Assembly: GCA_017475035.1 (NCBI GenBank)
Contig: JAFVGK010000168.1
Coordinates: forward strand, 1-41,585
Origin: Blautia sp.
GTDB taxonomy: Bacteria > Bacillota > Clostridia > Lachnospirales > Lachnospiraceae
DNA length: 41,585 nt
Reading direction: 5' to 3'
Shown: positions 675 through 41,433 of the stretch, piece by piece
Position numbering within the stretch: position 1 is the stretch's first letter
How the letters are laid out: the number at the start of each line of letters is the position of its first letter
The notes under the pieces: model-generated
Told to the model about the DNA's origin: nothing
The model's database searches: none
What the model saw: only the letters and a program-made list of their open reading frames with translations
Position numbers and translations under genes: made by a program

Positions 675-1685
675 ATGGATCTGAATGATTTAAAGATCGA
701 TCCGGAGTTCGAGGAAAAGATCCCTCCGCTGACAGAGGATGAGTTTTTGCTCCTTGAGCAGAACATCGTCGCAGACGGAGAGGTGCTGGATCCCCTGATT
801 ATCTGGAATAACACGATCCTGGACGGACACAACAGATACCGGATTCTGAAGAAACATCCTGAGATTCCATTCAAAACATTTCCGAAAGAATTTCCGGATA
901 AATATGCAGCGATTGCATGGATCTGCAGAAATCAGCTTGGACGGAGGAATCTGACACCTGAACAGAAACGCTATCTGATTGGTAAGCAGTATGAAGCAGA
1001 AAAGGCGTCACACGGTGGACATTACGTGGAACGAGATTCAGAAACTGGTCAATTCACCGTAAGTCTTCAAAATGAAGACTTACGGATACCCGAACGGACG
1101 AGTGCAAAAATTGCTGAGGAATCTAATACCAGTCGAAGCTTCGTTGAACGGGCTGAAAAATATGCAAAAGGTGTAGATGCGGCAGATGAAGCACTTCCTG
1201 GCATTCGAAAAGAGATTTTATCCGGATCAATAAAACCTACACAAGCCGCAGTTGCCGCTATCGCCCGTGCCGCGCCGGAGGACAGAGCCGAACTTGCAGA
1301 ACAGCTCCGGCAACCAAAAGCAAAACCAGAGAAAACTGAAGAACCGGAAGAAATCGACGAGGAAGACTTTGAAGAACAGGAATCCGAAGTGGATGACACT
1401 CCGGTCCGGATCCCGAAAACAAGCGAGATCCTGGCACTGGCTGAGAGCATGAACCATTCCGAAGGGCAGGCCATCGGCACCGTCGAAGACATGATCTACG
1501 AGATGAACAGCGCGATGCAGGACATGATCTTTCGCTGGAACTTCTGTAAGGAAGCATACGCCGGACCGGTCCGGAGCCGGGACGGAAAACGGCAGATCAA
1601 AGATCTGGCGGCCGAAGGAATTGAGTATCTGAAAGAGATCCGAAAAGGAAAGTTGTGGAAAGGAGAAACCGATGAAAACAAATGA
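675..1685 (+). CDS. ParB/Srx N-terminal domain protein of an integrative element
   Basis: The 336-residue product has an N-terminal ParB-type fold: residues about 25-60 carry the family pattern of a partner-binding loop followed by ILDGHNRY, the equivalent of the ParB GxxRxxA/DGHxR box. Residues 90-200 are helical and basic (NLTPEQKRYLIGKQY), followed by an acidic, low-complexity linker (about 225-245, rich in Glu and Asp) and a C-terminal helical tail. Proteins of this kind sit in the maintenance or regulatory block of Firmicute conjugative elements and act on DNA. An AGGAGGA ribosome binding site lies about seven bases before the ATG. Its last 14 bases overlap the next gene, so the two are probably translationally coupled. 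It lacks the full-length chromosomal ParB architecture, so plasmid-style partitioning is only one possibility. Confidence 0.7.
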   Translation: MDLNDLKIDPEFEEKIPPLTEDEFLLLEQNIVADGEVLDPLIIWNNTILDGHNRYRILKKHPEIPFKTFPKEFPDKYAAIAWICRNQLGRRNLTPEQKRYLIGKQYEAEKASHGGHYVERDSETGQFTVSLQNEDLRIPERTSAKIAEESNTSRSFVERAEKYAKGVDAADEALPGIRKEILSGSIKPTQAAVAAIARAAPEDRAELAEQLRQPKAKPEKTEEPEEIDEEDFEEQESEVDDTPVRIPKTSEILALAESMNHSEGQAIGTVEDMIYEMNSAMQDMIFRWNFCKEAYAGPVRSRDGKRQIKDLAAEGIEYLKEIRKGKLWKGETDENK

Positions 1686-2454
1686 ATTTACTTATAAGGT
1701 CATGGACCTGAATACGGCGCAGCTGGAGATCCCGCGGGAAACCTACCAGAGAGAATTGAGCCCGGACAGGGTGCGGTGCATCGTCAAGGCGTTTGATGAA
1801 CGCATTGCAAACGAGCCGAAGGTCAGCTATCGCGGCGGCCACTATTACGTGTTTGATGGCCAGCACACCATCGCTGCCAGAAAGCTCCGCAATGACAACC
1901 AGGACCTTAAAGTACGCTGCAAAGTGTATTTCGGAATGTCGGATAAAGATGAAGCGCTTCTCTTCGCACAGCAGACCGGCGCTTCTGCAAAACTATCCGC
2001 CGGCGTGAAGATCCGGGCCAGAATCTTTGGAGGTGATCCGGAAGCGATCCAGTTCAAAGATGCGACCGAGGCCGTCGGTCTCCGCCTGGATTACGGGCAG
2101 GACAAAGGCAAGAAACGGCTTCCCTGCATAAGCACTGCTTACACTGCTTTTCAGAAGCTTGGAGCGGAACGCTACATGGAGATGCTGCAGGTCATCCTGG
2201 ATGCCTGGAACGGAGCGCCGGATTCATTCCGAAGAGAGAACGTGCAAGGGATATCCGCTTTCGTAGATCTTTACCATGATGAATATGACCCGAAGCGGCT
2301 GGTAAGCCGGCTGAAGCGATACGATCCGCTTCACATTTACAGAGAAGGCAAGGCAAGTGGCCTGAACCTGGCCGGTTACAAGAAATATCTGAACCAGGTA
2401 TGGCTCATGTACAACGGAAGCAGCCGTAAGAACGCGCTTCCCCAGAAATATTGA
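1672..2454 (+). CDS. DUF6551-like ParB-related protein
   Basis: The 260-residue product begins with a segment typical of ParB/Srx-like folds: a dictated set of interaction residues (YQREL near 25), then YVFDGQHTIAARK at about 60-72, where DGQHT is the expected core motif. It resembles the DUF6551 family found beside integrases and ParB-like genes in Firmicute elements. Its start codon lies inside the end of the preceding gene, overlapping by 14 bases, which suggests coordinated expression. The biochemical role is unknown; binding of nucleotide or DNA by the ParB-like fold is inferred from the family. No membrane segment or signal peptide is present. Confidence 0.6.
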   Translation: MKTNEFTYKVMDLNTAQLEIPRETYQRELSPDRVRCIVKAFDERIANEPKVSYRGGHYYVFDGQHTIAARKLRNDNQDLKVRCKVYFGMSDKDEALLFAQQTGASAKLSAGVKIRARIFGGDPEAIQFKDATEAVGLRLDYGQDKGKKRLPCISTAYTAFQKLGAERYMEMLQVILDAWNGAPDSFRRENVQGISAFVDLYHDEYDPKRLVSRLKRYDPLHIYREGKASGLNLAGYKKYLNQVWLMYNGSSRKNALPQKY

Positions 2455-2469
2455 TCGGAGGAACAGCCC

Positions 2470-2862
2470 ATGAGAACAAGAGAATTAAGACCCGGATGGT
2501 TCTTCCGGAGAGGCGATATTTACCTGGCAAACCTGAATCCATTTACCGGATCGGAGCAGGGAGGCACACGGCCGGTACTGGTCCTGCAGAATAATGATGG
2601 GAACTTCTACTGCCCCACCCTGATCGTGGCGCCGATGACGACGCAGATCAAGAAGCTGAACCAGCCGACCCATTATCTGATCAAAAACAACCGTGCGCTT
2701 GCGGCTCCCTCGATGGTTGAGTTCGAGCAAATCAAGACAATCGACAAGAGCCGGATCAAAGGCTATCTCGGAAAGCTGACGAGGGAACAGCTCAGCGAAA
2801 TCGATGATTACCTGAAGATCAGCCTGGGGATGTATATCCCGGAGACGGTCGAAGCGCCGTAA
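2470..2862 (+). CDS. MazF/PemK-family toxin (endoribonuclease)
   Basis: The 130-residue product shows the PemK/MazF barrel: RRGDIYLANLNPFTGSEQGG at the N-terminus, then RPVLVLQN and PTLIVAPMTT, the strands that form the RNA-binding face. MazF enzymes cut single-stranded RNA at short sequence motifs and are normally neutralised by a small antitoxin encoded just upstream. Here the gene directly upstream is the DUF6551-like gene, 15 bases away, and no short antitoxin reading frame is visible next to it. A GGAGG ribosome binding site precedes the ATG. The downstream gene is a small wHTH protein that could serve as a repressor or unconventional antitoxin; that is inference. Confidence 0.8.
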   Translation: MRTRELRPGWFFRRGDIYLANLNPFTGSEQGGTRPVLVLQNNDGNFYCPTLIVAPMTTQIKKLNQPTHYLIKNNRALAAPSMVEFEQIKTIDKSRIKGYLGKLTREQLSEIDDYLKISLGMYIPETVEAP

Positions 2863-2892
2863 AGACATAAATACCGAAGAGGAGGACGACAA

Positions 2893-3150
2893 ATGAACGA
2901 GATGAGAATAGATGAGAAAGAGATGGAAAAACAGGATAATGCAGATTTTGAAGTAAATGCGGATGAGGCGGGTACCGTTCCGGAAAACCGTTGTTATACA
3001 GTGGAGGATCTGGAGGCTATCCTGATGATCAGCAAGAGAAGCGTTTACAACCTTCTGAAGAAAAAGGAATTCCGATGGATCAGGGTCGGCCGTTCCGGTT
3101 ACCGGATCTCGAGGAAAAGTTTTGATGAATGGCTGAATCATACTGCCTGA
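2893..3150 (+). CDS. Excisionase-like winged helix-turn-helix protein
   Basis: An 85-residue product with an acidic N-terminal tail (about 1-30) and a single MerR/excisionase-type wHTH: YTVEDLEAILMISKRSVYNL forms helices 1 and 2, and RWIRVGRSGYRISRKSFDEW forms the wing and last helix. Such proteins bind DNA and, near a tyrosine integrase, commonly direct excision of the element. The gene follows the MazF-like toxin by 30 bases with an AGAGGAGG ribosome binding site. It is followed by a strong hairpin at 3225-3252 that may end or attenuate the upstream transcript. Confidence 0.72.
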   Translation: MNEMRIDEKEMEKQDNADFEVNADEAGTVPENRCYTVEDLEAILMISKRSVYNLLKKKEFRWIRVGRSGYRISRKSFDEWLNHTA

Positions 3151-3224
3151 AATCTGTCAAGGATCTCGTTTCGGCAAAACAGCGGAATCGACATCCTAAC
3201 AATTCCGAAGAAGGGTTGATAGGT

Positions 3225-3252
3225 TATATCCAGGCCGTGCGGCCTGGATATA
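3225..3252 (+). terminator. Perfect 12-bp hairpin between wHTH genes
   Basis: TATATCCAGGCC pairs perfectly with GGCCTGGATATA around a GTGC loop. Only a weak T-rich tail (TCTTTG) follows, and the ribosome binding site of the next gene begins a few bases later. It could be a terminator, an attenuator, or an RNA-processing or protein-binding site controlling the four-wHTH gene. Confidence 0.5.
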
Positions 3253-3274
3253 TCTTTGAGAGGAGGAGCTGAAA

Positions 3275-4144
3275 ATGCCGGATGAAAAGAAAACCACAAT
3301 GTCTGTCGCAGAGATGGGGAAAATGCTGGGCCTCGGGAAGACGGAACCCTACTGGCTGGTACATAAGAACTGCTTCGAGACGATCATGGTGAATGGAAAG
3401 ATGAGGGTCGTGATCGAAAGCTTTGAGAAATGGTATACCAACCAGACCAAGCGCAAAAAGGTGAACGGACCGCCGCCCGGAGAAGAACTGAGGGCAAATT
3501 CGTATTCCGTGCAGGAGATCGCAGATATGCTTTCCCTTGACAACACGTCCGTGTATTACCTGATCAGGAGGGATCAGATCCCGACTTTCAAGGCTGAGAC
3601 GTGGACGCGGATCCGAAAAACGGATTTTGAAAAATGGTATGCATCCCAGAACAAACACCGGACACAGGAAGACCGTGAGAAGGATGCTGCGCTTGAGGCA
3701 GAGACCCTGACGATGCCGGAAATGGCAAAGGAGCTCTATATCGAGAGGGATGAAGTCTACAACATCCTTGAAAGGAAGGAGAATCGGGATGCGTTTGACT
3801 TTGTGATCATTGCGGATAAGAAAAGGATCACACGTGAGAGCTTCGAGCGGTGGTATGCAGGGCAGTCAAAATACCGGAAGCTGTCGGATCGGACGCCGGA
3901 AGAACTGGAAGAGATTCGGATGGCAGAAAAGAAAAAGGAAGCTCCGCGTCTGGAGGTTGATCCGGACAAGCCCAGCTATAACGTCCGGGAAACGGCAGTT
4001 CTTATGGATCTTACGCCCGATGAGGTCCGGCGGCTGATCCGGGAAGGGAAGCTCGCGGCAAAGAAGTACGGCGCCAGCTACATAATCCGCAGAGAAAATA
4101 TTTCGTGGTGGCTTAAGCAGCAGAAACTCTTTGCGGAATCATAA
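3275..4144 (+). CDS. Protein with four tandem excisionase-like wHTH units
   Basis: The 289-residue product is built of four related units of about 60-75 residues, each with a helix-turn-helix start and a final aromatic helix. Unit 1 (about 8-60) ends SFEKWYTNQTK; unit 2 (about 74-128) has YSVQEIADMLSLDNTSVYYL and ends DFEKWYASQNK; unit 3 (about 145-210) has LTMPEMAKELYIERDEVYNI and ends SFERWYAGQSK; unit 4 (about 232-286) has YNVRETAVLMDLTPDEVRRL and ends ISWWLKQQ. Single units of this kind are excisionases or MerR-type DNA binders. Four in one chain suggests recognition of an extended or repeated site, for example at the element end. It lies 15 bases upstream of the integrase, with an AGAGGAGG ribosome binding site. 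Confidence 0.7.
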   Translation: MPDEKKTTMSVAEMGKMLGLGKTEPYWLVHKNCFETIMVNGKMRVVIESFEKWYTNQTKRKKVNGPPPGEELRANSYSVQEIADMLSLDNTSVYYLIRRDQIPTFKAETWTRIRKTDFEKWYASQNKHRTQEDREKDAALEAETLTMPEMAKELYIERDEVYNILERKENRDAFDFVIIADKKRITRESFERWYAGQSKYRKLSDRTPEELEEIRMAEKKKEAPRLEVDPDKPSYNVRETAVLMDLTPDEVRRLIREGKLAAKKYGASYIIRRENISWWLKQQKLFAES

Positions 4145-4159
4145 GGAGGTGCAGGATAT

Positions 4160-5560
4160 ATGGCATCAATTGTTCAAAAGAAGAATCGGTACTATGTCGT
4201 TTATCTTTACGACTCTGAAGACGGCAGGAGAAAGCAGAAATGGGAGTCTTTTAAGACGAAGGAAGAGGCCAAACGGCGAAAGGCAGAAATCGAATACAGG
4301 CAGCAGCTTGGCAGCCTTGTGATTCCCAAATGCAAAACGGTCGAGGAACTGCTTCGGGAATATGTTTCCCTCTACGGCAAGAATACCTGGTCCATGTCCA
4401 TGTATGAAGGCAGCACCGGTCTGATCAAGAACTATATCAATCCGATCATCGGACCGATGAAGCTTTCCGAAGTGACGCCGAGAGTTCTGGAAAAATACTA
4501 TATGTCTCTTCTGCAGACGAAAGCGGTCATCCGGTGTACGGACAAGCAGTATACCAAACGGGAAACCCCGGGGAAAAGAGACAGCTTTGTAACGCCCGGA
4601 ACCGTGCGGAGAGTACATAAGCTCTTAAATAGTGCTTTTACGCAGGCGATGAAGTGGGAACTGATCGAGAAAAATCCTGCGCAGCTGGCGACGGTCCCAA
4701 AGGTTGAAAAAAAGACACGTGATATCTGGGATGCCGATACGCTGTTTCACGCATTGGAGGTCTGTGAAGATGAACGCCTGAAGCTGGCGATCAATCTGTC
4801 GTTCTCCTGCTCTTTGAGAGTCGGCGAGCTGCTCGGCCTGACCTGGGACTGCGTGGATGTTTCGGAAGAAAGCCTGGCAGAAGGAAAGGCTTCCATCTTT
4901 ATCAATAAAGAGCTGCAGCGGGTCAGAAAGAGTACGATGGAAACATTGGAAAAGAAAGATGTTCTCTGCGTGTTCCCTGAGCAGACAAGCAACGCGGCGA
5001 CGGTGCTTGTCCTCAAAAAGCCGAAGACCCTTACCAGTACAAGGCGCGTCTATCTGCCGAGAACCGTTGCCGAGATGCTGATTGACTGGAAAAAAGATCA
5101 GGAAATCACAAAGGAGGAGCTTGGCAGTGAGTATCATGACTATCAGCTGGTAATTGCCGGTCCTTTTGGAGCACCGATGGAGCATGGAAGGATCAATGAG
5201 CTCTTTAATCAGCTGATTGAGCAGAATAATCTGCCGAAGGTAGTCTTCCACAGTCTTCGCCATTCCAGCATTACCTACAAGCTGAAGCTGAACGGCGGCG
5301 ATGTGAAATCCGTACAGGGCGATTCCGGTCATGCGCAGGCCAAAATGGTCACGGACCAGTACTCTCATATTCTGGATGAAGACCGCAAAAACAACGCCCA
5401 GATCTTTGAGGATGTCTTCTATCAGAAAAAGACACCGGGCCAGATTGCAGCCGAGCAGGCCGGTCAGTCGGCCGGTATCGATGCGGAGCTGCTGATGAAG
5501 GTCCTTACGAACCCAGAAATGGCGAAACTTTTGAAGGCACTGGCGGGAACAATCGAATAA
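4160..5560 (+). CDS. Tyrosine integrase (phage/ICE type)
   Basis: The 466-residue product has an N-terminal arm-binding domain (about 1-50, KKNRYYVVYLYDSEDGRRKQ), a SAM-like core-binding domain (about 60-170), and a C-terminal catalytic domain. Visible catalytic residues are Arg220 (SLRVGELLGL), His364 and Arg367 (HSLRH), His391 (GHAQ) and Tyr401 (DQYSHI). It catalyses site-specific integration and excision of the element. The gene follows the four-wHTH gene closely and is followed by a terminator and then by a tRNA 3' half at 5878-5919, the expected position of an attachment site. A 24-codon fragment of a close relative of this catalytic domain lies at 14525-14596. The reading frame appears complete. 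Confidence 0.93.
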   Translation: MASIVQKKNRYYVVYLYDSEDGRRKQKWESFKTKEEAKRRKAEIEYRQQLGSLVIPKCKTVEELLREYVSLYGKNTWSMSMYEGSTGLIKNYINPIIGPMKLSEVTPRVLEKYYMSLLQTKAVIRCTDKQYTKRETPGKRDSFVTPGTVRRVHKLLNSAFTQAMKWELIEKNPAQLATVPKVEKKTRDIWDADTLFHALEVCEDERLKLAINLSFSCSLRVGELLGLTWDCVDVSEESLAEGKASIFINKELQRVRKSTMETLEKKDVLCVFPEQTSNAATVLVLKKPKTLTSTRRVYLPRTVAEMLIDWKKDQEITKEELGSEYHDYQLVIAGPFGAPMEHGRINELFNQLIEQNNLPKVVFHSLRHSSITYKLKLNGGDVKSVQGDSGHAQAKMVTDQYSHILDEDRKNNAQIFEDVFYQKKTPGQIAAEQAGQSAGIDAELLMKVLTNPEMAKLLKALAGTIE

Positions 5561-31543: not shown

Positions 31544-31636
31544 TCACAGTTTTTCCATATTCTCACAGATGAGGGCAGTCCGCTCATCATCCTTCCGTGC
31601 CTGCATCGCCTCGTTGTCGGTTCTGGTCCTATTCAT
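31544..31636 (-). pseudogene. 30-codon duplicate of the adenylation-gene start
   Basis: This frame encodes MNRTRTDNEAMQARKDDERT then ALICENMEKL and a stop. It is a diverged copy of the first residues of the adenylation gene at 32522-33451 (MNKTRTVNEVMQAWKDDERT). The bases upstream of both starts are also alike (TGTCAGGAACATG..GCGT.ACG). It shows that the [condensation end plus adenylation start] unit was once tandemly duplicated. Confidence 0.75.
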
Positions 31637-32582
31637 CGTCACGCCGCATGTTCCTGACAAGTCTGTTCACAAAGGATATGACTGTCTCATTCCCGAATCT
31701 CCTGCTCTCATACATGCAGACGATGCGGATCCTGTCCCCTGTCATCACACACACCCTGGCTTCCTTGGAACTGCGCCTGATGATTTTTGCTGTCTCTGCC
31801 TCGGCGAAGGGGGTCAGATCTGTCACGATCAAATCGGTCCCGGCGACCTGCGGCGGCTGGATATCCAGAACAAAACCGCCTTCCGTTCGTTCAGGATACC
31901 GGTAAGCCCATCCATATTCCCGGCTCCTGGCCAGCTGCAGCTGGATCCGGGACAGTTCCGTATCTTTTTCATAGATAAAGGGAAAGCCGCAGGCAAACAT
32001 TCCGAAAAGCTCGTTATCTGCCGTCAGAATGTCCGGTCTGCCGTCAGCCGTAGTAAAAAAGCAGGCTCTGTCTTTTCGCGTAAATTCACAGATGACCCGT
32101 CCGAATGCCGCATGGATATATGTGGCAACCGTAACCTTGCTTCTGCGGCAGTACGCCAGGATCTTTCCGGTGTCGGCTTTGGAGATCCATGTCGTGTGGA
32201 CCATGAGGCCTTCGCCCGATGGCAGTTCCTCCGTACGGCCCGGTCTGAAAAGCGTTTTCTCCACGCCTGTCATACAGGCCCAATATCGATCAGCCTCAGC
32301 CCGCAGCCGTTCCATGGTACCGTAACAGGATCTGACGGCGATACTGTCATCCGTCAGGCAGCCGTCATCGAACAGTTCTCGCTTTAAACGGCCAAGGGAT
32401 AAGGCATCCATGATGAGATGCGACCACATGATAAAGAGCATATACTCCTCATCCTTTGTCCTGATCAGACCGCCGGCGATAAGGGCGCGGCCTTCTTCAA
32501 AGCCCTTCGCTGCCCACAGGTTTACCAGCGTCCGTAAATAATTCTCCTTCTTTGCCATAGACCTGCTGTCCACATAGAACAT
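31629..32582 (-). pseudogene. Condensation-domain protein lacking its N-terminal part
   Basis: The 317-residue frame starts MFYVDSRSMAKKENYL, which aligns with the middle of the N-lobe of the other condensation domains here (MFYADIRG, LFYADLRE). About 100 N-terminal residues are missing. The active-site motif is present as SHLIMDA (usual form HxxxDG, here the Gly is Ala). The C-lobe is complete (VTVATYIHAAFGRVICEF, NELFGMFACGFPFIYE). The frame also runs on upstream as RDPQAQ directly into the truncated adenylation gene, showing that a deletion joined the two. It overlaps the 30-codon adenylation copy by 8 bases. Probably non-functional or altered. Confidence 0.65.
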
Positions 32583-33451
32583 CTGCGCCTGCGGATCTCT
32601 GACGATCCATATCCGGCGATCAGCTGTCCGCGGGTCCTGCCTGTTATGATGGCTGCCGCCTGTTCTGTAAGCTTCTCACCTGAGGTGCATATCCTTTTGA
32701 GCTGCCGGAGAGCATCAGCAAACGTCTCATCCTCAATGTATCTGAGGAGCATGGACGGCGTAGCTGAAAGGGCATCTGCTTTATTCCGCATTATGCATTC
32801 CCCTAAACGCGCAGGCGACTGCCTTTCTTCCTGAGAAGCGATGATCAGCGTCAATCCGTTTCTGACAGACGAGATCATGTCATACAAAGAAAAGGAATAC
32901 GCATAATTCAGCAGGCTGACAACCCTGCGGCAGTTTTTCAACGTATAGCTGATCATGACATTTTCTTCAAAAGGCGATGTATAATTGAACAATACCTCAT
33001 GAGCCACAGATAAGCCTTTCGGCCTGCCGGTGCTGCCGGAAGTGTAATACACACAGCATTCATCCTCTCCCGAAACGACCGGGAGTTCCACGGAGCCCGT
33101 CCCGTCTGCCGTCAGTCTTCTGTATACCTCCGGCTTTATGGTCAATACCGCTCTGCAGTCCGAACAGATGCATTCTATCCTTTCCTCCGGCCACGAAGAA
33201 TCCACCGGGACACAGACACCGCCGGCATACAGCACCCCGAACATGGCCGTCACAAATTCGATCCCGGGATCAAGACACAGCACGATTCTTTCGCCCTTTG
33301 AAATGCCTCCGGAAACGAGCGCGCCCGCGATCCTTTGTGAGAGACGGATCAGGCCGGCAAAGGACAGTTCCTTATCCTCACAGATGAGAGCCGTCCTCTC
33401 ATCGTCCTTCCATGCCTGCATCACCTCGTTGACAGTTCTGGTCTTATTCAT
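32522..33451 (-). pseudogene. Adenylation (AMP-binding) gene truncated after motif A5
   Basis: The frame encodes the first 285 or so residues of an adenylation domain: A2-like region YAGGVCVPVDSSWPEERI, A3 YYTSGSTGRPKGLSVAH, A4 region SLLNYAYSFSLYDMIS, and A5-like IAGYGSSEI. Immediately after, the sequence becomes out-of-frame with the following condensation gene (RRRRCSMWTAG..). The second half with motifs A6-A10, including the catalytic Lys, is missing. The deletion breakpoint is near 32590. The gene starts 39 bases after the C-PCP-C gene. A working enzyme is unlikely. Confidence 0.75.
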
Positions 33452-33492
33452 CGTTACGCCTCATGTTCCTGACACGTCTGTCCATTTTTCGC

Positions 33493-36435
33493 TTATCCTT
33501 CCAGATCCTCCAGGATCACCGCTTTCCATCGGTCAAAAATGCGTTCTACGACGTCTCTGTCGATCTTATCGGAATCATAGGCATAATTGACCGTGAACTG
33601 TCCGGATGGGTTTATGAAGATCATCAGGCCGTCGATCTGGTGCTTTGCTATCTCCTTCGTTTGGAGAATCGTCGTCAGTCTCGCATTGACTGCACCTTCC
33701 CTGACCCAGGGCCCGTCTTCCTTAATAAAATTGGTCATGTCGACAATGATCTCGTGGCCGCTGCACTTTTTGAACGCTTCGCCTTCCATATGCAGAACCC
33801 AGTCATATTCCATACCCCGGCAGATCTTCTGCAGGCTGTCGCTCAGCGAATCTCCGCGTGTATAGACAAACGGGAACCGGTTCATGAAGTTTCCCGTAAG
33901 CTGATCATCTGTCGTGACAACGCTGCTTCGCCCGCTTTCGATCGTCAGTACACAGATGTTTTCTGTATCAAGTACCGCGCACAGAGCCTGTCCGAGAGTG
34001 TTATGCAGATAGGCCGATAAGGTCACTCCCTGACGGCTGCAGTACATTTTCAGCATGTCGCCTCTGACTTTGCCGAGCCACCGGTTACGGTAGATCATTC
34101 CCTGTCCCGATCCTGCCGGGGGCGTAAGCCTCGTCAGATCTCCGACGGTTCTCATCACTTCCTTCCAGTAGCCCATCTCCGAAGAGCCGTCTCTTTGTGT
34201 GATGTTCCTGAAATAGGCCTGGATCAGTTCCGCATCCCCGGTCAGCTTCTCATCGGAAAGCAGTTCTTCGCTGATCCGTTTCACTCCGATGCCGTCCAAT
34301 ATACCATGGCTGTAGCGCAGGAAGAGATAGAATTTTTCGTCATCCGCCCGAATCAGTCCGGCCTCCATCAGGGGGGCTCCCTCTTTCCTGCCTTTTTCTG
34401 CCATCATGCGCATCAACTGGCGTAGATAATCTTCCTGCGCCTGCGACAATGCATCCTGCTGCGGCGAACGGTCCCTCAGCCCGCGTATATCCGCATAAAA
34501 CATGCGTTCCGGGTTCTTTCTGGTCACGACGAGCAAGGGCTTTCCTTCGTCCGTGTAAACCACAGCGGTCCTCAGCATCTGCCTGGCCGCGCAGAGCTTG
34601 TCATATCTTTCTCTGATTTTCTGCGGATCCAGCTTTCCATTGAACAGTTGAAGTTCAGGAAGCGCATACGTACAGCCGTTATATCGTTCGTAGAATCTGC
34701 GGTTATCGTAGGTCACGGGATAGACGGCCTCCACGTTATCCCATCCGATCTTCTTCTCAACAGCCGCCCGATCGGACATCGTCAGACTGTATTCCCAGCC
34801 CGGCACATGCCCGTCTCCACGGGACTCATCTTCACAGGACTCCAGTACCTGCGCCAGCTGTCTGATCTCCGGCAGCACAAAGATCCATTTGATTTTCAGT
34901 TCCATTCCCCTGGACTGAAGCTCAGTGATAACCCTCATCGCCAGGATCGAGTCTCCCCCCAGATCAAAGAAGCTGTCGTTCCTGCCCACAGGCCGGCCTG
35001 GCTTAAGCACGTCTTCAAACACCTGGCATAACAGCGTTTCCTGAACAGTCTCAGGGGCTTCATAGACCCTGGTCTGGTCTTCGCCGACCTCGGGCAGCGC
35101 CTGCCGGTCGGGCTTCGTTTCTGTCACCATATGGATTATCCTCTCTGCCGCCTCTCTGAACCGTCCGGAGAGCGTATCGATCACGGTCGGGTCACAGGCT
35201 TCTGTGTTGAAATAGCTGGAGATATTATAGTTACCGCCCGGTGTGATCAGGAAGGTCACGTCATTTTCATGCTGGTGAAACGATGTCTCATCCACCACGC
35301 CGTCCATATAATACGTTTCAATACGGCCTGTCACCTCAGGCTCATCCGGACCGCTGAAATTCATGACGTCCATGATCACTGTCCGTCTTCGCTTGTCCGG
35401 GTCACGGAAGCCCTCCCCAAGCCAGTCCAGGTCAATATGTTCATGATCCAGACCCGAAAGCAGCTGCGACTGGCAGTCGGCCGGACTCTCTCCGGCTCTG
35501 TACAGTATGGGGAACCTGGTCATATACATCCCCGTAAGATCCGGATCATCCGTCAGTTCGTTTCCCCGGCCTTTTCCAGTCATAAGAAAACAGACTTCAT
35601 TCGTATCGCACAGTTCCGTCATCGCTGTTCCGATCATGGCTGTAAAAAAGGCGGTCATGGTGACACGTCGTTCCCTGCAGTATGCCCGGATCCTTTCCCC
35701 CAGCTTATGTCCCAGCCATTTTCTGCGGATCACCGCATACCACGATGGCCGGAAGCTGTCCGTGACCGGCAGCTGTGTAAGGCTCTTTATATTTCCCAGT
35801 GTCTTTTTCCAGAAGGATAACGAAGGATCCCCCACTGAACGCAGGCGCCTGTAACAGGCCCGTACCGTTTCATCATCGGCGCTGACCGCCTCGTCGCTCT
35901 CCAGTTCGCGGACGATGCGGTACAGGCCTGTGCCGTCCAAAACATAATGGGAACAGATCATCCATCTGACATACTGCCTGTCAGACACTCTGATATACCC
36001 CAGGTGGATCAGCGGCCCGCCCTCCGTGAGGCCTGCGTCAAGACGCTTTTGTGTAAGTGTTCTCAGATACTCCTTCTGCCCGTCTGACAGGCCGTTTTTA
36101 CCGGCAGCTTCCCCGTCAGCCATCTCCCTGAGATCTGCATAAAACAGCTCATTGTCCGTTTTCCGGAGCACAGCCAGTACAGGATCCTTGTATTCCGGAA
36201 TAAACATCGTCATACGAAGCGCCTGCCTTTTTGAAGCAAGCTCTTTGAATCTTTCCTTCAACCGGGTAATATCAAGAGCGGTATCTGTGTCAATGATCTG
36301 AATATTGACATTGTACCAGGTTTTATCCCCGGTATACCGGTGATGATCTCTGGATGACGGTATCATTTCGTAAATATCGGTGATCTCTCCGGCATCTGTG
36401 CGTTTTTTTATTTCTTCAAGCTTTCCCTGTATCAT
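33493..36435 (-). CDS. C-PCP-C non-ribosomal peptide synthetase-like protein
   Basis: A 980-residue protein with a condensation-like domain (about 35-435; active site SHYVLDG, His163), a peptidyl carrier protein (about 462-535; DLGGDSI, phosphopantetheine Ser496), and a second condensation-like domain (about 565-975; SHGILDG, His710). Both active sites have Ser in place of the first His of HHxxxDG and keep the second catalytic His. There is no adenylation domain in the chain, so a stand-alone adenylation enzyme must load the carrier. The ATG overlaps the glycosyltransferase stop (ATGA), so translation is coupled. It ends LEDLEG; a neighbouring frame shows a further short tail like that of the other condensation protein. 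No thioesterase follows. Confidence 0.88.
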   Translation of the reverse strand: MIQGKLEEIKKRTDAGEITDIYEMIPSSRDHHRYTGDKTWYNVNIQIIDTDTALDITRLKERFKELASKRQALRMTMFIPEYKDPVLAVLRKTDNELFYADLREMADGEAAGKNGLSDGQKEYLRTLTQKRLDAGLTEGGPLIHLGYIRVSDRQYVRWMICSHYVLDGTGLYRIVRELESDEAVSADDETVRACYRRLRSVGDPSLSFWKKTLGNIKSLTQLPVTDSFRPSWYAVIRRKWLGHKLGERIRAYCRERRVTMTAFFTAMIGTAMTELCDTNEVCFLMTGKGRGNELTDDPDLTGMYMTRFPILYRAGESPADCQSQLLSGLDHEHIDLDWLGEGFRDPDKRRRTVIMDVMNFSGPDEPEVTGRIETYYMDGVVDETSFHQHENDVTFLITPGGNYNISSYFNTEACDPTVIDTLSGRFREAAERIIHMVTETKPDRQALPEVGEDQTRVYEAPETVQETLLCQVFEDVLKPGRPVGRNDSFFDLGGDSILAMRVITELQSRGMELKIKWIFVLPEIRQLAQVLESCEDESRGDGHVPGWEYSLTMSDRAAVEKKIGWDNVEAVYPVTYDNRRFYERYNGCTYALPELQLFNGKLDPQKIRERYDKLCAARQMLRTAVVYTDEGKPLLVVTRKNPERMFYADIRGLRDRSPQQDALSQAQEDYLRQLMRMMAEKGRKEGAPLMEAGLIRADDEKFYLFLRYSHGILDGIGVKRISEELLSDEKLTGDAELIQAYFRNITQRDGSSEMGYWKEVMRTVGDLTRLTPPAGSGQGMIYRNRWLGKVRGDMLKMYCSRQGVTLSAYLHNTLGQALCAVLDTENICVLTIESGRSSVVTTDDQLTGNFMNRFPFVYTRGDSLSDSLQKICRGMEYDWVLHMEGEAFKKCSGHEIIVDMTNFIKEDGPWVREGAVNARLTTILQTKEIAKHQIDGLMIFINPSGQFTVNYAYDSDKIDRDVVERIFDRWKAVILEDLEG

Positions 36436-37823
36436 CTGAATAACCTTGTTTTAAGCCAGCTGACCGCACTGTCAGAAAGAAAATGTCCATCCCAGGAGAT
36501 CAGGATCGTGGTGTCTTTCCCGGTATCGAACAGGGTAATGCGGTACCTGACTTCGTCGGCGCCAAATCCTCTGAGCTCCTCCACCATTATATATCCGTCC
36601 ACGGTCTTTGACATCCTGTCCTCATCATACCCTGAAATACTTACGCTGAGGACCTCCGGCGACGCGTCTTTGGTGACGATCCCTCTGAAACAGTTATCAG
36701 GATCCGGAAGCAGCCGTAATCCGCTGTATTCCGATGCGGTATTCTTCACCTTCTCCTGAATGAGTGCCTTGTCTGTCCTCCCGGAATGGATCTTCATATG
36801 CTTCCACTCAGGCTCTCCGAAGGCTTCGGCTTCATCAGGAAAAGCCGCAAGCACCGCCGCGGCCAGAGAAACCCCTTCACCGCCGTCAAACCGGCGATCC
36901 GACCTCATGACCTGCATATCCCTCAGTCCGGATGATATATAGTGAGCGATCTCCATACGCAGCGCAGCGCTCACATCGGTGACGCGCATCATGATCGACA
37001 TGGCCTGGCTGATCTGGATCCACATCCAGTTATTTATATCCGGAAAATCCGTGTTTCTGAAGGAACTCAGTCTGTCCATGAAACGCTTCAGTCCTGTCCA
37101 GTACCTTCCGGGATCCCGTGCCCTGGACTGAAAAACACTGTCCTCCCTGATGTAATAGACATAGCCCTTCGTTTTCGGCAATAAAAGGATCTGCCTGGCC
37201 CGTGAAGCTGCCTCAAAGACATAATTTCCGTCGCAGAATGAGGCGCCCGGTGTCTGATCAAATTCGACGCCGCAGGATCTGATAAAGGAGGCTTTGTAGC
37301 CCCAGCTCCATACGTTTATAAAAAGTCCTTCAAGGGCGTCGCAGATCCTTATGTCGCCATGATCCAGGATCTCCTGTGAATCGCAGGGGAGCTTCGCTTC
37401 AAAAAAAGCCCGCTTTTGACGGGCATTGCAAAGTCCTTCGGCGACGCAGGGAAAAACTGCCATGTCCGCGCCGGTCTTTTTCAGCTGATCCGCGACCTTG
37501 ACAGTAAATCCGGGCGTGAGTTCGTCATCGCCATCCAGCCAGAAGATATAGTCGCCCCCCGCTGTTTTAAGCAGGATATTGCGCACTGCGCCAAGACAGC
37601 GTGCAGGTTCTTTTACATCCAGTACCCTGGCAAAAGCAGTTCCCTGTGTTATGTCAGTGATCGTTTTGAGATACGCCTCAGGCATATTGTGAACCGCTAT
37701 GAGCCATTCCAGCTCATAGCGGGGAGATTCCTGGGCCTTCACAGAATGAAGCGCCCGTTCGACATATTCCGGCGCCATCTCATAAAGCGGCGTCAATATT
37801 GATATTTTTTCTCTGGCTTCCAT
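36432..37823 (-). CDS. Family 2 glycosyltransferase with an additional C-terminal region
   Basis: A 463-residue protein. The N-terminal 230 residues are a GT-A fold: ISILTPLYEMAPEYVERALH, then AVRNILLKTAGGDYIFWLDGDD, with the DGDD (D-x-D-like) sugar-nucleotide/metal motif near residue 98. Residues about 235-340 are helical. The last 120 residues (SEYSGLRLLPDPDNCFRG, VRYRITLFDTGKDTTILISW, LSDSAVSWLKTRLF) look like the C-terminal strand-helix end of the cluster's condensation domains, though this is only a resemblance. It lies inside the NRPS-like operon with a nine-base gap before and a four-base overlap after, so it is very probably part of the pathway, glycosylating the product or a carrier-bound intermediate. 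Confidence 0.85.
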   Translation of the reverse strand: MEAREKISILTPLYEMAPEYVERALHSVKAQESPRYELEWLIAVHNMPEAYLKTITDITQGTAFARVLDVKEPARCLGAVRNILLKTAGGDYIFWLDGDDELTPGFTVKVADQLKKTGADMAVFPCVAEGLCNARQKRAFFEAKLPCDSQEILDHGDIRICDALEGLFINVWSWGYKASFIRSCGVEFDQTPGASFCDGNYVFEAASRARQILLLPKTKGYVYYIREDSVFQSRARDPGRYWTGLKRFMDRLSSFRNTDFPDINNWMWIQISQAMSIMMRVTDVSAALRMEIAHYISSGLRDMQVMRSDRRFDGGEGVSLAAAVLAAFPDEAEAFGEPEWKHMKIHSGRTDKALIQEKVKNTASEYSGLRLLPDPDNCFRGIVTKDASPEVLSVSISGYDEDRMSKTVDGYIMVEELRGFGADEVRYRITLFDTGKDTTILISWDGHFLSDSAVSWLKTRLFR

Positions 37824-37832
37824 ACCTTCCCA

Positions 37833-39320
37833 TCAGATTTCTATTTCCTTCAGCGCGCTTCGCTGAAGTTTGCCGCTGACATTTACGGGCATTTCCGGAA
37901 TGCGCCGGATAAAAGCCGGTATCATATAGTACGGCAGATTTTCAGCGATATGTGTGCGGATCAGTACTTCCGGAATATCTCCGTCTGCCGTATAAAAACC
38001 GCAGAGAACCTGTTTTCCCCTGACTTCTCTCACAGTCACTGCCGCCTGGAGGATTCCAGGCGTGCCGCCCATCACATTTTCGATCTCCTCCGGGGCCATC
38101 CTGAGGCCGTGTATCTTGATCATATTATCCATCCGGCCGGCCAGCCGAAAGGTTCCGTCCGCAGTCTTTATCGCCGCGTCTCCCGTACGGTACAGTCTGC
38201 CCAATGTCTCATGAACCATATATCTTTCATCTGTAAGCTGACTGTCCGCCAGATAATATCCGTCTTCAGGTGATATGCCTCCCAGCATCAGTTCGCCTGT
38301 TTCCCCTGCCGGAAGCTCGTTCATGTCCTCGTCCATGATATAGATCGCGGTCGTAGGCCATATCTTCCAGTCAGGCTCCTGTGGACCGGTAAAGATGCGC
38401 TGGGCCACCCCGAACATCTCGGTCGCCCCGTAGGTATCAAAGATCCTGATCCCGGGGATCTTTTTCCTGAGCTCCTCCGCCATGATCGGCGTTACGGCTT
38501 CACCGCTCAGGCACACACCTGTGATCCCTTTCGAAGCCTGGGCAAACACAGGGTTTTCCATGTAGCGGATCATACCTGATATGGTAAAGCTGATCCACTC
38601 CACTTTGTCCCGGATGATCCTGGCTGCGATCGCGTCTATAGACGTCAGCTCCTTTTCAGAAAGAATGACCGATGTCCTGCCGATAAGTAAGTTCGCAAAC
38701 ATCATCCCCGACGTCGCCGCGAAGGACATATTGTACATCAGCATATACCTTTCGTACGTATCATTCAGCTGAAGCACCTCCACATTCTCCCGCGAGAATA
38801 CCATGCCCAGCACCATACGATGGGACAGCACGGCGCCTTTAGGAGTTCCGGTACTTCCGGAGGTGTACAGATACGCACAGGGATCAGTCTCTGCAGGAAC
38901 AGGCCCGGAAAACGCAGCTTCACAGCCATCCTCAGGCTGTTCCAGAAGCGCCTTCAGCTTTTCCTCTGTCAGAATGACCGCTGCCCCGCACTCCTCAGCG
39001 ACAGCCCTTATCCGGTCTTCAGGCCAGAGCAGCGTCATCGGCACATAGATGTAATTGCCGAGCATAGCCGCCGCTGCCGCGGTTACATAACCGATCCCCG
39101 GATCCATAAGGACCGCGACAGGAGCGCCAGGCTCTATCCCCTCCTTTCGAAGGCATGAAACGACCTTTGAGGCGTCAGCCAGGAGTTCCCTGAACGAAAT
39201 GCTGTTTTCTAAGGTAATGGCAGCCTCTGTTTCTGAATCTTTCAACAGCATCAGAACTTCACCGACGGTTCCGAGACCGCCGGGAACTGTTTTTTTCCAA
39301 TTATATTCAAATTTTTTCAT
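37833..39320 (-). CDS. Stand-alone amino-acid adenylation (AMP-binding) enzyme
   Basis: I start at ATG 39320 (MKKFEYNWKK), four bases after the stop of the preceding gene; an earlier ATG would overlap that gene. The 495-residue product has the full set of adenylation motifs: A3 YLYTSGSTGTPKGAVLSH, A5 IFDTYGATEMFG, A7 YRTGDAAIKT, A8 FRLAGRMDNMIKIHGLRM, and A10 NVSGKLQRSAL with the catalytic Lys. No carrier domain is attached, so it resembles DltA-like or free-standing NRPS enzymes that activate one acyl acid and pass it to a separate carrier. The pocket region LMYNMSFAATSGMMF lacks the canonical Asp, so the substrate may not be a standard alpha-amino acid; this is tentative. The likely carrier is in the C-PCP-C protein. 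Confidence 0.9.
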   Translation of the reverse strand: MKKFEYNWKKTVPGGLGTVGEVLMLLKDSETEAAITLENSISFRELLADASKVVSCLRKEGIEPGAPVAVLMDPGIGYVTAAAAAMLGNYIYVPMTLLWPEDRIRAVAEECGAAVILTEEKLKALLEQPEDGCEAAFSGPVPAETDPCAYLYTSGSTGTPKGAVLSHRMVLGMVFSRENVEVLQLNDTYERYMLMYNMSFAATSGMMFANLLIGRTSVILSEKELTSIDAIAARIIRDKVEWISFTISGMIRYMENPVFAQASKGITGVCLSGEAVTPIMAEELRKKIPGIRIFDTYGATEMFGVAQRIFTGPQEPDWKIWPTTAIYIMDEDMNELPAGETGELMLGGISPEDGYYLADSQLTDERYMVHETLGRLYRTGDAAIKTADGTFRLAGRMDNMIKIHGLRMAPEEIENVMGGTPGILQAAVTVREVRGKQVLCGFYTADGDIPEVLIRTHIAENLPYYMIPAFIRRIPEMPVNVSGKLQRSALKEIEI

Positions 39321-39324
39321 TTCT

Positions 39325-41433
39325 TTAATAATCCGAATTAACCCAAAGCATCGAGTAGCGTTTGACCAGTTCATGCAGCTCGCGGATCAGGCTGCGCGCA
39401 AACTGCGGCTGTTCATTCATGAATTCGACCACATCCGCTTTCGTGATGTGGACGATCTTTACCTCCTCCGAGATCGCATTGACACCGGAATAGGTCCTTA
39501 CATTATCCAGCGTTCCGGATGCGCCGATGATCCCGCCCGGGCCAACAGCCCTGAGCGTGTTCTGCCATCCGTTGGCGGCTGTTCTGAACTCCTCCACATA
39601 TCCTTCCGCGATGGCATACAGCCCATCCGGAAGGGATCTTTCGCGGATGATCACCTCTCCCCCGGTAAAGCTGAGGATTTTCGCTTTTTCCGCAAGTTTC
39701 CAAAGGCTTGTTTCATCAATGCCCTGAAACAGAGGCATTCCCTTAAAGAGTGACGCCTTCTTTTCTGTCTCCAGCGCTTCATCGTCCTCACTGTCAAGGA
39801 AGCAGGTGAGCGTGGGACATGAGATATCCCCCACCGTAAGGGTTCCTTCCGTGTCCCTGATGACCTGCGTCAGCACCTTCCGGTAGCAATCCATCAGGAC
39901 GCGGATCTTCCGATCACTGAAAGCCCGGCTGTCGTAGGTGAACCGGCAGATCAGATCCTTTCCCGGCATCTGGAAATACAGGCAGAAACCCGTGGACAGG
40001 TTGTCAAAGAAATCCATCTCCAGAATGGAAAAACCCGGCAAGGCAGGCATTCTCTTGTGACTGCCGCCTCCGAAATTATGAAAATTCAGGAGATGGTCAA
40101 ACACAGGTCCCTCCCGGCCAAGCTTCTCTCTGATCTCATCCGGTGTGCAGTGGGCCTTATTCTGCGAAATCAGGATTTGTGTCTGAATCTCTGCCACCAG
40201 CGCCTTAAACGGCTTATCCTCCTCCGCTCTGACGCGGACCGGAAAAGCATTGACAAAGCTGCCGGTCATCATGTCATTGTCGCTGACCTCGGCGCTGCGT
40301 CCGGAAGTGATACAGCCGAAAACCGCGTCGTCCCTTTTGTAGATCTTCTGGAGCATGACACCCCAGGCAGTCTGGACGATGCTGTTCATGGTTGCCTGGT
40401 AGCGCCTCTGCATTCCGCCGATCAGTTCCTTTTCCTCTTCCGAAAAACTGAGTATCCGGGTATTCATCATCGGATCCAGATTGCTTGTCACCCTGCCCGG
40501 AAGTCTGGAAATACGGGCGCCTTTAAGCAGCTCTTCCCAATACTTCAGTTCCGCTTCTTTGTCAATGTTTTCGATCCACTTCGCGTAGCTCTGGTATGAG
40601 CCGGCAGCCATTTCCGGCATCGGGAATTTCCCGCCCAGGGCATAATCAATGAAGATATCCTTCATGATCAGTCCCTCGCTCACACCGTCGTCATTGATGT
40701 GAGGCTGGGACATCACGATGGCGTAGGTATCTTTCTCAGCGGTGCTGAAAACCGTTATCCGAAGCAGCGGATCCTTTTCAAGATCGAAGCCCCTGCGTCT
40801 GTCATTCTCACGGAACAGGCTGATCTCCTCTTCAAGCTCCTCCTCGCTCATATCTGAGCGGTCGATAAAGTTAAGCTCCGGTCTCCGGTTCTTCAACACG
40901 ACCTGATATGGCTTCTTCAGACCCCGATAGGCAAACGCTGTCCGAAGATTTGTTCTCTTAAGACTCACCTCATCGACCTTCTGTCTGAATTCCGAGGGCT
41001 TCAGCTCCATATTGAGCTTCATGTACATCTGGAGAAAGAAAGCATTGGTCACCTTCTTTGCCCTTCCGAACATCCACTCCTGGCCAGGGGCCAGATTAAA
41101 GATATCCTCTATGTCGATCCCGTATTTGGTGATGATGGCGTCCAGGCTCTCCTGTGTCAGATCGCTGGCTGTAAATGTTCCGGGCGTCAGACCTTTTGCC
41201 GTACTCTTCGCGGGCTTTGAAGCAGCATTGGCTGCCGGTTTAAGGGTCTTATTGGCTGCAGGCTGCTGTCCGGGCAAGTGACTGACCGACTGCGGCTGCT
41301 GCCAGTTCTGTATGTTCCGGCCGTAATACTGCTGTCCGCTGTAATTCTGCTGCAGCCAGCTGCTGTAATTCTGCTGCGGCCATGACTGCGCCCACATGCC
41401 GTTCTGCTGCCCGAAAAACTGAGTATTATACAT
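39325..41433 (-). CDS. Condensation-domain protein with Q/W/Y-rich N-terminus and cyclic-nucleotide-binding-like C-terminus
   Basis: A 702-residue three-part protein. Residues 1-55 are low-complexity and rich in Gln, Asn, Tyr and Trp (QQNYSSWLQQNYSGQQYY), followed by an Ala/Lys/Pro linker (55-85). Residues 90-520 are a condensation domain, opening with DLTQESLDAIITKYGIDIED, with the active site PHINDDG (His245; the first His is Pro). Residues about 555-695 match a cyclic-nucleotide-binding fold: FKGMPLFQGIDETSLWKLAE, VIIRERSLPDGLYAIAEGYV and VGPGGIIGASGTLDN. I know no characterised NRPS with this fusion. First gene of the operon; GGTGAAGGC precedes its ATG. The CNB-like end could sense a nucleotide or be structural. 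Confidence 0.85.
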   Translation of the reverse strand: MYNTQFFGQQNGMWAQSWPQQNYSSWLQQNYSGQQYYGRNIQNWQQPQSVSHLPGQQPAANKTLKPAANAASKPAKSTAKGLTPGTFTASDLTQESLDAIITKYGIDIEDIFNLAPGQEWMFGRAKKVTNAFFLQMYMKLNMELKPSEFRQKVDEVSLKRTNLRTAFAYRGLKKPYQVVLKNRRPELNFIDRSDMSEEELEEEISLFRENDRRRGFDLEKDPLLRITVFSTAEKDTYAIVMSQPHINDDGVSEGLIMKDIFIDYALGGKFPMPEMAAGSYQSYAKWIENIDKEAELKYWEELLKGARISRLPGRVTSNLDPMMNTRILSFSEEEKELIGGMQRRYQATMNSIVQTAWGVMLQKIYKRDDAVFGCITSGRSAEVSDNDMMTGSFVNAFPVRVRAEEDKPFKALVAEIQTQILISQNKAHCTPDEIREKLGREGPVFDHLLNFHNFGGGSHKRMPALPGFSILEMDFFDNLSTGFCLYFQMPGKDLICRFTYDSRAFSDRKIRVLMDCYRKVLTQVIRDTEGTLTVGDISCPTLTCFLDSEDDEALETEKKASLFKGMPLFQGIDETSLWKLAEKAKILSFTGGEVIIRERSLPDGLYAIAEGYVEEFRTAANGWQNTLRAVGPGGIIGASGTLDNVRTYSGVNAISEEVKIVHITKADVVEFMNEQPQFARSLIRELHELVKRYSMLWVNSDY

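Follow-up and report, generated by a model that had tools for sequence, protein, structure and literature searches.

The DNA analyzed here, called the window throughout, is the entire 41,585-base contig JAFVGK010000168.1 of Blautia sp. (assembly GCA_017475035.1; contig C149 in our numbering). Its minus strand carries, in order, genes for a condensation (C) domain fused to a cyclic nucleotide-binding-like domain (C-CNB), an adenylation (A) domain (A1), a family 2 glycosyltransferase (GT2), a condensation-carrier-condensation protein (C2-PCP-C3), a truncated A domain (A2), a truncated C domain (C4) and the remnant of a third A gene, as identified by Pfam matches and open reading frames. We read this cluster, giving the reading slightly less than an even chance, as a dissociated system derived from nonribosomal peptide synthetases (NRPSs) that would join carboxylic acids without an alpha-amino group to sugars. 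The domains are present and intact in the four whole genes, they co-occur with glycosyltransferases (GTs) in related loci, the A and C domains carry distinctive signatures, the C domains fall into two clades, and the end of the GT2 protein (C-stub) is similar in profile to a C domain.

Domain signatures of the cluster

The C-CNB loci (the window, G018:C33, G195:C3, G195:C78, G483:C79, G483:C47+C95 and G713:C188, given as genome and contig) were compared to 23 ordinary NRPS loci of 3.9-37 kb each, which were a selection from those returned by the searches of relatives. These loci are few and come from draft assemblies, and the two loci each from G195 and G483 are not independent cases. The hidden Markov models (HMMs) were built from the case sequences, and most case domains were also matched by Pfam.

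The stand-alone A1 (37833..39374, minus strand, likely start 39320) matched AMP-binding at 1.6e-50 together with AMP-binding_C, and its best relatives were A domains from other C-CNB loci. Asp235 of A domains holds the alpha-amino group. This position is Ala in A1 and Ser in A2, and Asp235 was found in none of the 15 A domains linked to C-CNB, compared to 58/65 control A domains. The 15 were left from 19 rows after removing the duplicate count of a gene and the three rows from the G018 contigs C70 and C9, which hold NRPS parts and no C-CNB; with all rows kept, Asp was present in 1/19. A PLYH segment was found in four of the 15, the remaining ones looking NRPS-like. In the excerpted text of PMC11253843, two studied alpha-hydroxy acid A domains have a smaller, aliphatic residue at 235 and the Asp is missing from DhbE, an enzyme for aryl acids, while the excerpts of PMC10949194 describe a typically aliphatic residue at this position in keto-acid A domains. 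The sequence-only reading of the window, a note made earlier from the letters alone, had proposed an acyl- or aminoacyl-glycoconjugate as the product; since Asp235 is absent, the aminoacyl form is unlikely, and the acyl form is the best-fitting class.

The three intact C domains of the window have the motifs PHINDDG in C-CNB and SHYVLDG and SHGILDG in C2-PCP-C3 (33493..36435, minus strand, 980 aa, with two Condensation stretches and, between them, the single PP-binding carrier domain of the window with its GGDS), all of the single-His HxxxD type. A double His (HH) was found in 0/15 linked C domains, all of which have the catalytic His and Asp of HxxxD, versus 63/70 controls; these 15 were left from 17 rows after the rows from C70 (HH) and C9 (RH) were dropped, and with all rows kept HH was present in 1/17. 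According to the part of the PtMAC2p paper available (PMC10619693), HxxxD is found in CoA-dependent acyltransferases versus HHxxxD in NRPSs. In a FastTree phylogeny of 87 C domains, a module-C clade (support 0.991) comprised nine module C domains, including window C2 and C3 and one from G018 contig C9, and a C-CNB clade (support 1.0) comprised the C domains of six C-CNB proteins, in which that of the window was the sister of the second G483 copy at 47% identity. Neither clade contains a control C domain, and the C domain of a GT1-C protein of G483 lies outside both; only C domains with a match of at least 331 residues entered the tree and the C count, which left out window C4, the module of G018 and G713. 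The A and C domains of the window were closer to those of other C-CNB loci than to any control NRPS domain compared.

The arrangement of domains also departs from the NRPS module order C-A-PCP, which most controls have; it is C, A, C-PCP-C in the window and A-PCP-C in relatives. Because the order, the A domains and the C domains all failed these tests, the cluster was not filed as an NRPS, and it probably works like an NRPS with acyltransferase-type C domains. The statement of the sequence-only reading that this is not a normal assembly line is thus borne out.

The C-CNB protein (39325..41433, minus strand, 702 aa; Condensation 8.7e-65 and cNMP_binding 4e-11) consists of a Q/N-rich N-terminus (residues 1-80, 20% Gln), the condensation domain (residues 109-531) and the CNB-like domain (residues 588-674), which scored 43.2 bits with PF00027 against a cut-off of 27.5. 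Catalytic PHxxxDG is present in all six full-length close C-CNB proteins, and the solved structures nearest to the C domain are the bacitracin, tyrocidine and surfactin C domains. The phosphate-binding cassette motif of cyclic nucleotide-binding domains is FGE...R-A. Since this usual cassette was not seen by eye in the alignment of homologues, we do not claim control by a cyclic nucleotide. A second combination of a CNB-like domain with an NRPS was observed at L073:5948-12400, where the end of an A-PCP-C-A-PCP-reductase protein matched the CNB HMM of this analysis at 5e-15 and PF00027, below its cut-off, at 0.00012.

The GT2 (36432..37823, minus strand) matched Glycos_transf_2 at 1.4e-12, with 48.3 bits against the PF00535 cut-off of 23.3. 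It retains DGDD, but D-G, the first Asp motif of GT2 proteins, which acts in nucleotide binding, is replaced by HN. Such an HN or HH was found in 7/8 C-CNB-linked GT2s versus 0/25 control GT2s (one control has HG and one was unaligned), the eight being left from nine rows after that of C70 (HN) was dropped (8/9 with all rows kept). The PDB entries closest to a profile of four cluster GT2s are of the TarS/TarP type, and the nearest solved structures also include a TagF match. The GT2 protein ends in a stretch of ~124 residues, the C-stub (36435..36806, minus strand), which is like the N-terminal half of a C domain with the catalytic His replaced, as judged by eye. In hhalign comparisons, a five-member C-stub alignment matched module C domains at 96.3% (E 1.4e-9 for one template), C-CNB C domains at 77.1%, and GT2, A, CNB and GT1 alignments at <=0.2%; the C-domain HMM alone matched 2/5 of the members, and the other three were added by alignment.

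Relatives of the C-CNB locus

Close C-CNB relatives (34-47% identity) were found at six other loci in four genomes, giving seven loci in five genomes with the window. The G018 protein was found in a search of 60 relatives and the window's own genome, and a single-protein contig scan located another on L026, a contig of G483, which is a Lachnospiraceae metagenome-assembled genome from the rumen of a roe deer. Among 397 genomes of a family sample, 11 had matches at E <= 1e-30, the strong ones besides the window's own being the two in G195. Within the genus, C-CNB was found in 2/64 genomes, adding nothing to those known; such a patchy distribution is what an accessory cluster would show. The order sample of 392 genomes added G713. 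In this sample, only G713 and the window's genome gave C-CNB matches of more than 300 bits, and the G713 copy is cut by a contig end before the CNB part. Viral contigs yielded 112 pattern matches and 0 relatives. In plasmids, 24 records matched at E <= 1e-30, none of them reaching 60% identity, and the ten of these listed had 27-31% identity, nine being annotated as NRPS-type and one being without a feature.

The contents of these loci recur in varied arrangements. The G018 locus contains the second half of a carrier protein, a GT2, an A fragment, an 897-aa GT1 protein, a GT8 with a partial A match, a GT2-A-PCP-C-hydrolase protein and C-CNB. In G195, C3 encodes a two-carrier protein, C-CNB, MATE-HATPase, A-PCP-C-A, GT2 and A-PCP-C-GT2, and C78 encodes a two-carrier protein, C-CNB, A, A-PCP-C, A-PCP, an FkbM methyltransferase, a weak STAS match, A-PCP-C, GT2 and MATE. 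In G483, C79 encodes MATE, A, two paralogous genes (DUF1919 in the one scanned), GT1-C, a gene without a Pfam match, a two-carrier protein, C-stub-A and C-CNB. A second G483 cluster, located via the carrier profile, is apparently split over C47 and C95, both of which end in the carrier linker, and comprises MATE-HATPase, GT2-C-stub, GT2-C-stub-A, carrier halves on both contigs, C-CNB, A-PCP-C and A-PCP-C. GTs are thus joined to NRPS domains in A-PCP-C-GT2 (G195), in GT2-A-PCP-C-hydrolase (G018) and in GT1-C and GT2-A (G483). MATE proteins are found in four relative loci, and two in-cluster MATE transporters (L044:1986-3776 and L130:4793-6622) have a C-terminal HATPase_c_2 domain. At L050:2-10615 (G018:C70), which lacks C-CNB, an NRPS gene precedes a GT2-GH3 fusion, whose GT2 has HN, and two ATP-grasp proteins.

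A GT was present at 6/6 C-CNB loci with more than 9 kb examined, compared to 0/23 ordinary NRPS loci in the stretches examined. The six include the window; five have the GT on the C-CNB contig itself and one on a contig that probably adjoins it. G713:C188, with 4.9 kb examined and no GT visible there, was left out; adding it together with three genomes that have more distant C-CNB proteins (G301, G134 and G284) gives a GT count of 6/10. The G018 contigs C70 and C9 are in neither count, and adding them to the controls gives 1/25. Of the 23 GT2 stretches matched by Pfam, the GT2 model recovered 22, including every high-scoring one; since these genes were picked from strong matches in a 12-genome GT2 search (listed to about E 5e-19), the test tells little about weak GT2s.

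A carrier-linker-carrier gene, whole or in part, was found in 4/4 other genomes with close C-CNB proteins, and in the order sample at E <= 1e-15 the two-carrier gene was present in G713 only. The carrier linker has 2 to 11 Q-x-C-[TDM]-P motifs in 6/7 pieces and none in the C47 piece, which holds the linker start only. In the two-carrier proteins at L043:18822-19937, L045:16218-17261 and L114:2465-3505, Q-x-C-T-P-like repeats were observed 5, 11 and 6 times, respectively; that the low-complexity parts serve as a scaffold is our guess. A candidate carrier gene elsewhere in the window's own genome was rejected, the carrier profile giving two weak matches there that were both known PCPs.

The sequence-only reading had also remarked on the lack of a thioesterase, reductase or phosphopantetheinyl transferase (PPTase). 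No release domain (thioesterase or reductase) was found by Pfam in the six window proteins, as it had said, and a PPTase is encoded elsewhere in the window's genome, on contig C111. In the relatives, an alpha/beta-hydrolase ends a module in G018, and a PPTase lies beside the carrier gene in one genome. Since relatives have these functions, the genome has a PPTase and the window copy is incomplete, their lack in the window is not diagnostic.

The window copy and its surroundings

The window's genome assembly is 5.08 Mb in size, 93.6% complete and 5.0% contaminated. Coordinates and Pfam matches confirmed the gene order described from the sequence alone, as well as its close spacing: the C-CNB/A gap is 4 bases if A1 starts at the internal Met19, the A/GT2 gap is 9 bases, and the GT2 stop and C-PCP-C start overlap by 4 bases in ATGA. 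The active-site motifs of the C domains, carrier (GGDS) and GT2 (DGDD) are intact in the translations of the four whole genes. The contig edge lies 152 bases upstream of C-CNB, so the 5' side of the operon is cut off and outside our view.

Downstream, A2 (32522..33451, minus strand) covers AMP-binding profile positions 7-323 of 384 and shares 39% identity with an A-PCP-C module of G483, and C4 (31629..32582, minus strand; SHLIMDA) covers Condensation positions 117-298 of 456, with window C3 as its best blastp match. At ~32,590, A2 breaks off after the A5 motif and C4 is entered in another frame ~75 residues into the C domain, the N-terminal part of which is missing; this junction may be an assembly error. 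The third A gene is represented by a 30-codon remnant of its start (93 bases; 31544..31636, minus strand). A 117-bp direct repeat lies across the C3-end/A2-start junction (33368..33484, minus strand), and a second copy, 87% identical, overlaps the third-A remnant (31553-31669, minus strand). Since the repeat spans a C-end/A-start junction at both sites, it suggests tandem A-...-C units that have collapsed. The window copy is thus probably incomplete, with its 5' end cut by the contig end and its 3' A-C repeat units decayed.

A pattern scan found 8 promoter-like sites in the window versus 8.8 in shuffles and 20 terminator-like sites versus 8.9, on which we place no reading. Elsewhere in the window, a radical SAM/SPASM maturase (TIGR04340; 27891-29294, minus strand) and an ACGX-repeat peptide (TIGR04341; 29083-29286, minus strand) form a pair resembling those of ribosomally synthesized and post-translationally modified peptides; the pair is already modelled by NCBIfam, TIGR04340 being of the hypoth_equivalog type. 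At the opposite contig end, the plus strand has a XerC-like tyrosine recombinase with a match below cut-off (4160-5560) and a stretch weakly matching a DGQHR protein associated with DNA phosphorothioation (1672-2454), which together hint at a possible integrated element (1672-5560). On contig C162 of the same genome (L029:8240-11705), a short carrier protein flanked by a stand-alone C domain and an AMP-ligase forms a separate small NRPS-like locus.

Interpretation and alternatives

In the system that we propose, the A domains would load hydroxy, keto, aryl or fatty acids onto carriers, and the single-His C domains would act as acyltransferases that form an ester or amide on the carrier-bound chain or the sugar. 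GT2 would add a sugar to the carrier-bound chain, its half C domain probably docking the carriers; C-CNB would join or release chains, probably on the two-carrier scaffold protein of the relatives; and the MATE protein of four relative loci would export the product. What we infer from sequence is the class of substrates, that sugars are added on the carrier, what the C-stub and the CNB-like domain do, and the release, export and product. A bolder version, which we consider rather unlikely, is a new class of carrier line in which GTs would be chain-building domains on a par with C domains, so that hydroxy- or other carboxylic acids and sugars would be added alternately on a two-carrier scaffold with its low-complexity Q-x-C-T-P linker, while half C domains would dock the carrier to the GT.

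Several points weigh against the joining of such acids to sugars by this cluster. McyG activates Phe despite Val at 235, as stated in the excerpts of PMC11253843, and loss of Asp235 is hence not decisive; in addition, the four PLYH-bearing A domains may be plain acyl ligases. Because His-Asn replaces Asp-Gly in most linked GT2s, their donor and even their activity are uncertain, and the C-stub is present on only 4/8 of these GT2 domains, as well as before one A domain. The AlphaFold models were unusable, with a mean pLDDT of 37 for C-CNB and 47 for the C-stub, and Foldseek with the low-confidence stub model returned 0 matches at E <= 0.001. The two-carrier gene was not found in the window's assembly, no carrier C-terminus was seen in the three frames read over the 152 bases upstream of C-CNB, and the window copy may be non-functional. 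The sequence-only reading had asked whether the gene order is conserved elsewhere: the exact order was absent from all loci examined, and it is the set of parts that recurs. The entry of the split G483 locus in the GT count depends on joining C47 and C95 by their carrier-gene halves, as the GTs are on C47 and C95, which carries C-CNB, has none. C70 of G018 carries a GT2 at an NRPS locus without C-CNB, and MATE proteins are also near three control loci. Finally, the more distant C-CNB proteins of G301, G134 and G284 (L046:17072-18904, L047:12963-14870 and L048:5893-7902) have no A, PCP, GT or carrier-linker match within 19, 16 and 13 kb, and two of the three lack the catalytic His, the G134 copy (L047) keeping H-xxx-D; since they lie outside NRPS loci, the C+CNB architecture alone is no marker.

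These same distant proteins, two of which are near histidine kinases, would suit a C-CNB that is a regulator or scaffold with a regulatory rather than catalytic link to the GT-NRPS parts, which we consider improbable given that PHxxxDG is kept by every full-length close C-CNB protein. The idea that the A, PCP and C parts acylate a cell-surface polymer that GT2 helps build, as in teichoic acid D-alanylation and glycosylation, is less improbable than this, though still quite unlikely. The resemblance of the GT2 profile to TarS/TarP-type wall teichoic acid transferases and to TagF fits it, as do the MATE transporters and the DUF1919 gene next to its paralogue in relatives, but in the cluster genes that were scanned Pfam showed neither a polymerase nor a ligase for a polymer and no MBOAT family, and the fusion of GTs into A-PCP-C modules in some relatives suggests a carrier-bound substrate.

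A glycosylated peptide, made by an NRPS that is dissociated but otherwise normal and tailored by a GT, could draw on the nearness of the C-CNB C domain to those for bacitracin, tyrocidine and surfactin among solved structures, and on a McyG-type A domain that takes an amino acid without Asp235. It is hardly more probable than the regulatory account, since Asp235 and HH are missing from all linked domains, the modules run A-PCP-C, and all 23 ordinary NRPS loci lack a GT in the stretches examined; an ordinary glycopeptide was considered and is made unlikely by the Asp235 and HH counts. Decay of a standard NRPS, its scattered remains lying near a GT2 by chance, would account for the truncated 3' end (A2, C4 and the third-A remnant) with its repeat and for the missing release domain. 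Against it stand four genes intact with their active-site motifs, homologous parts and GTs that recur in five other loci, domains that match other C-CNB loci best, and two clades that exclude every control C domain. Since these distinctive features are found together, chance or decay is a poor account of the cluster; this explanation, which the sequence-only reading had named as its possible refutation, is largely refuted and very improbable.

Comparison with described systems places the proposed acid-sugar system next to several of them. It shares A, PCP and C homology with multimodular NRPSs for bacitracin, tyrocidine and surfactin, the solved structures nearest to the C-CNB C domain being those of bacitracin synthase 3 and tyrocidine synthase 2, and differs from them in its A-PCP-C or split order, the lack of Asp235, single-His HxxxD, fused or adjacent GTs, the CNB-like domain and the half C domain on GT2. 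In the excerpts of PMC4351081, streptothricin synthetase similarly uses a C domain and NRPS parts only to join a carrier-bound acid to an amino sugar; however, its donor is an amino acid or peptide, and those excerpts mention no GT built into a module. Lincosamide synthetase (LmbC and LmbN-CP), in the same excerpts, joins an acid to a sugar with a stand-alone A domain and a separate carrier, but with an amino acid substrate and no C domain, while several C domains and a GT2 are present here. PtMAC2p, as far as the available part of PMC10619693 goes, acylates a glycolipid and is similar in structure to PapA5 and NRPS C domains; the fold group and single-His logic are common to both, whereas here the acyl donor would presumably be carrier-bound and the enzyme lies among carriers, A domains and a GT. 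The TarS/TarP-type GT2s also have DxDD, but in the cluster HN replaces the Asp motif and a half C domain follows. Searches of an open-access library, outside of which most subscription papers fall, turned up no paper about C-CNB or about NRPS lines with built-in GTs of this kind, in agreement with the earlier statement that no such pathway is described.

A rumen survey attributes 923 of 5,346 NRPS clusters to Lachnospiraceae, and its excerpts describe no glycosyltransferase-NRPS class, with 0 occurrences of 'saccharide' in the main text (PMC8241843); relatives of the present cluster may be among those 923. The family is compact, one locus consisting of C-CNB, a two-carrier protein, A-PCP-C modules, GT2 and, in four loci, MATE. 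If the proposed system is real, it would offer GT-carrier docking parts usable in engineering, would be an example of condensation domains returning to acyltransferase work, and would represent an undescribed class of products to which sugars are added by glycosyltransferases built into NRPS-type modules.

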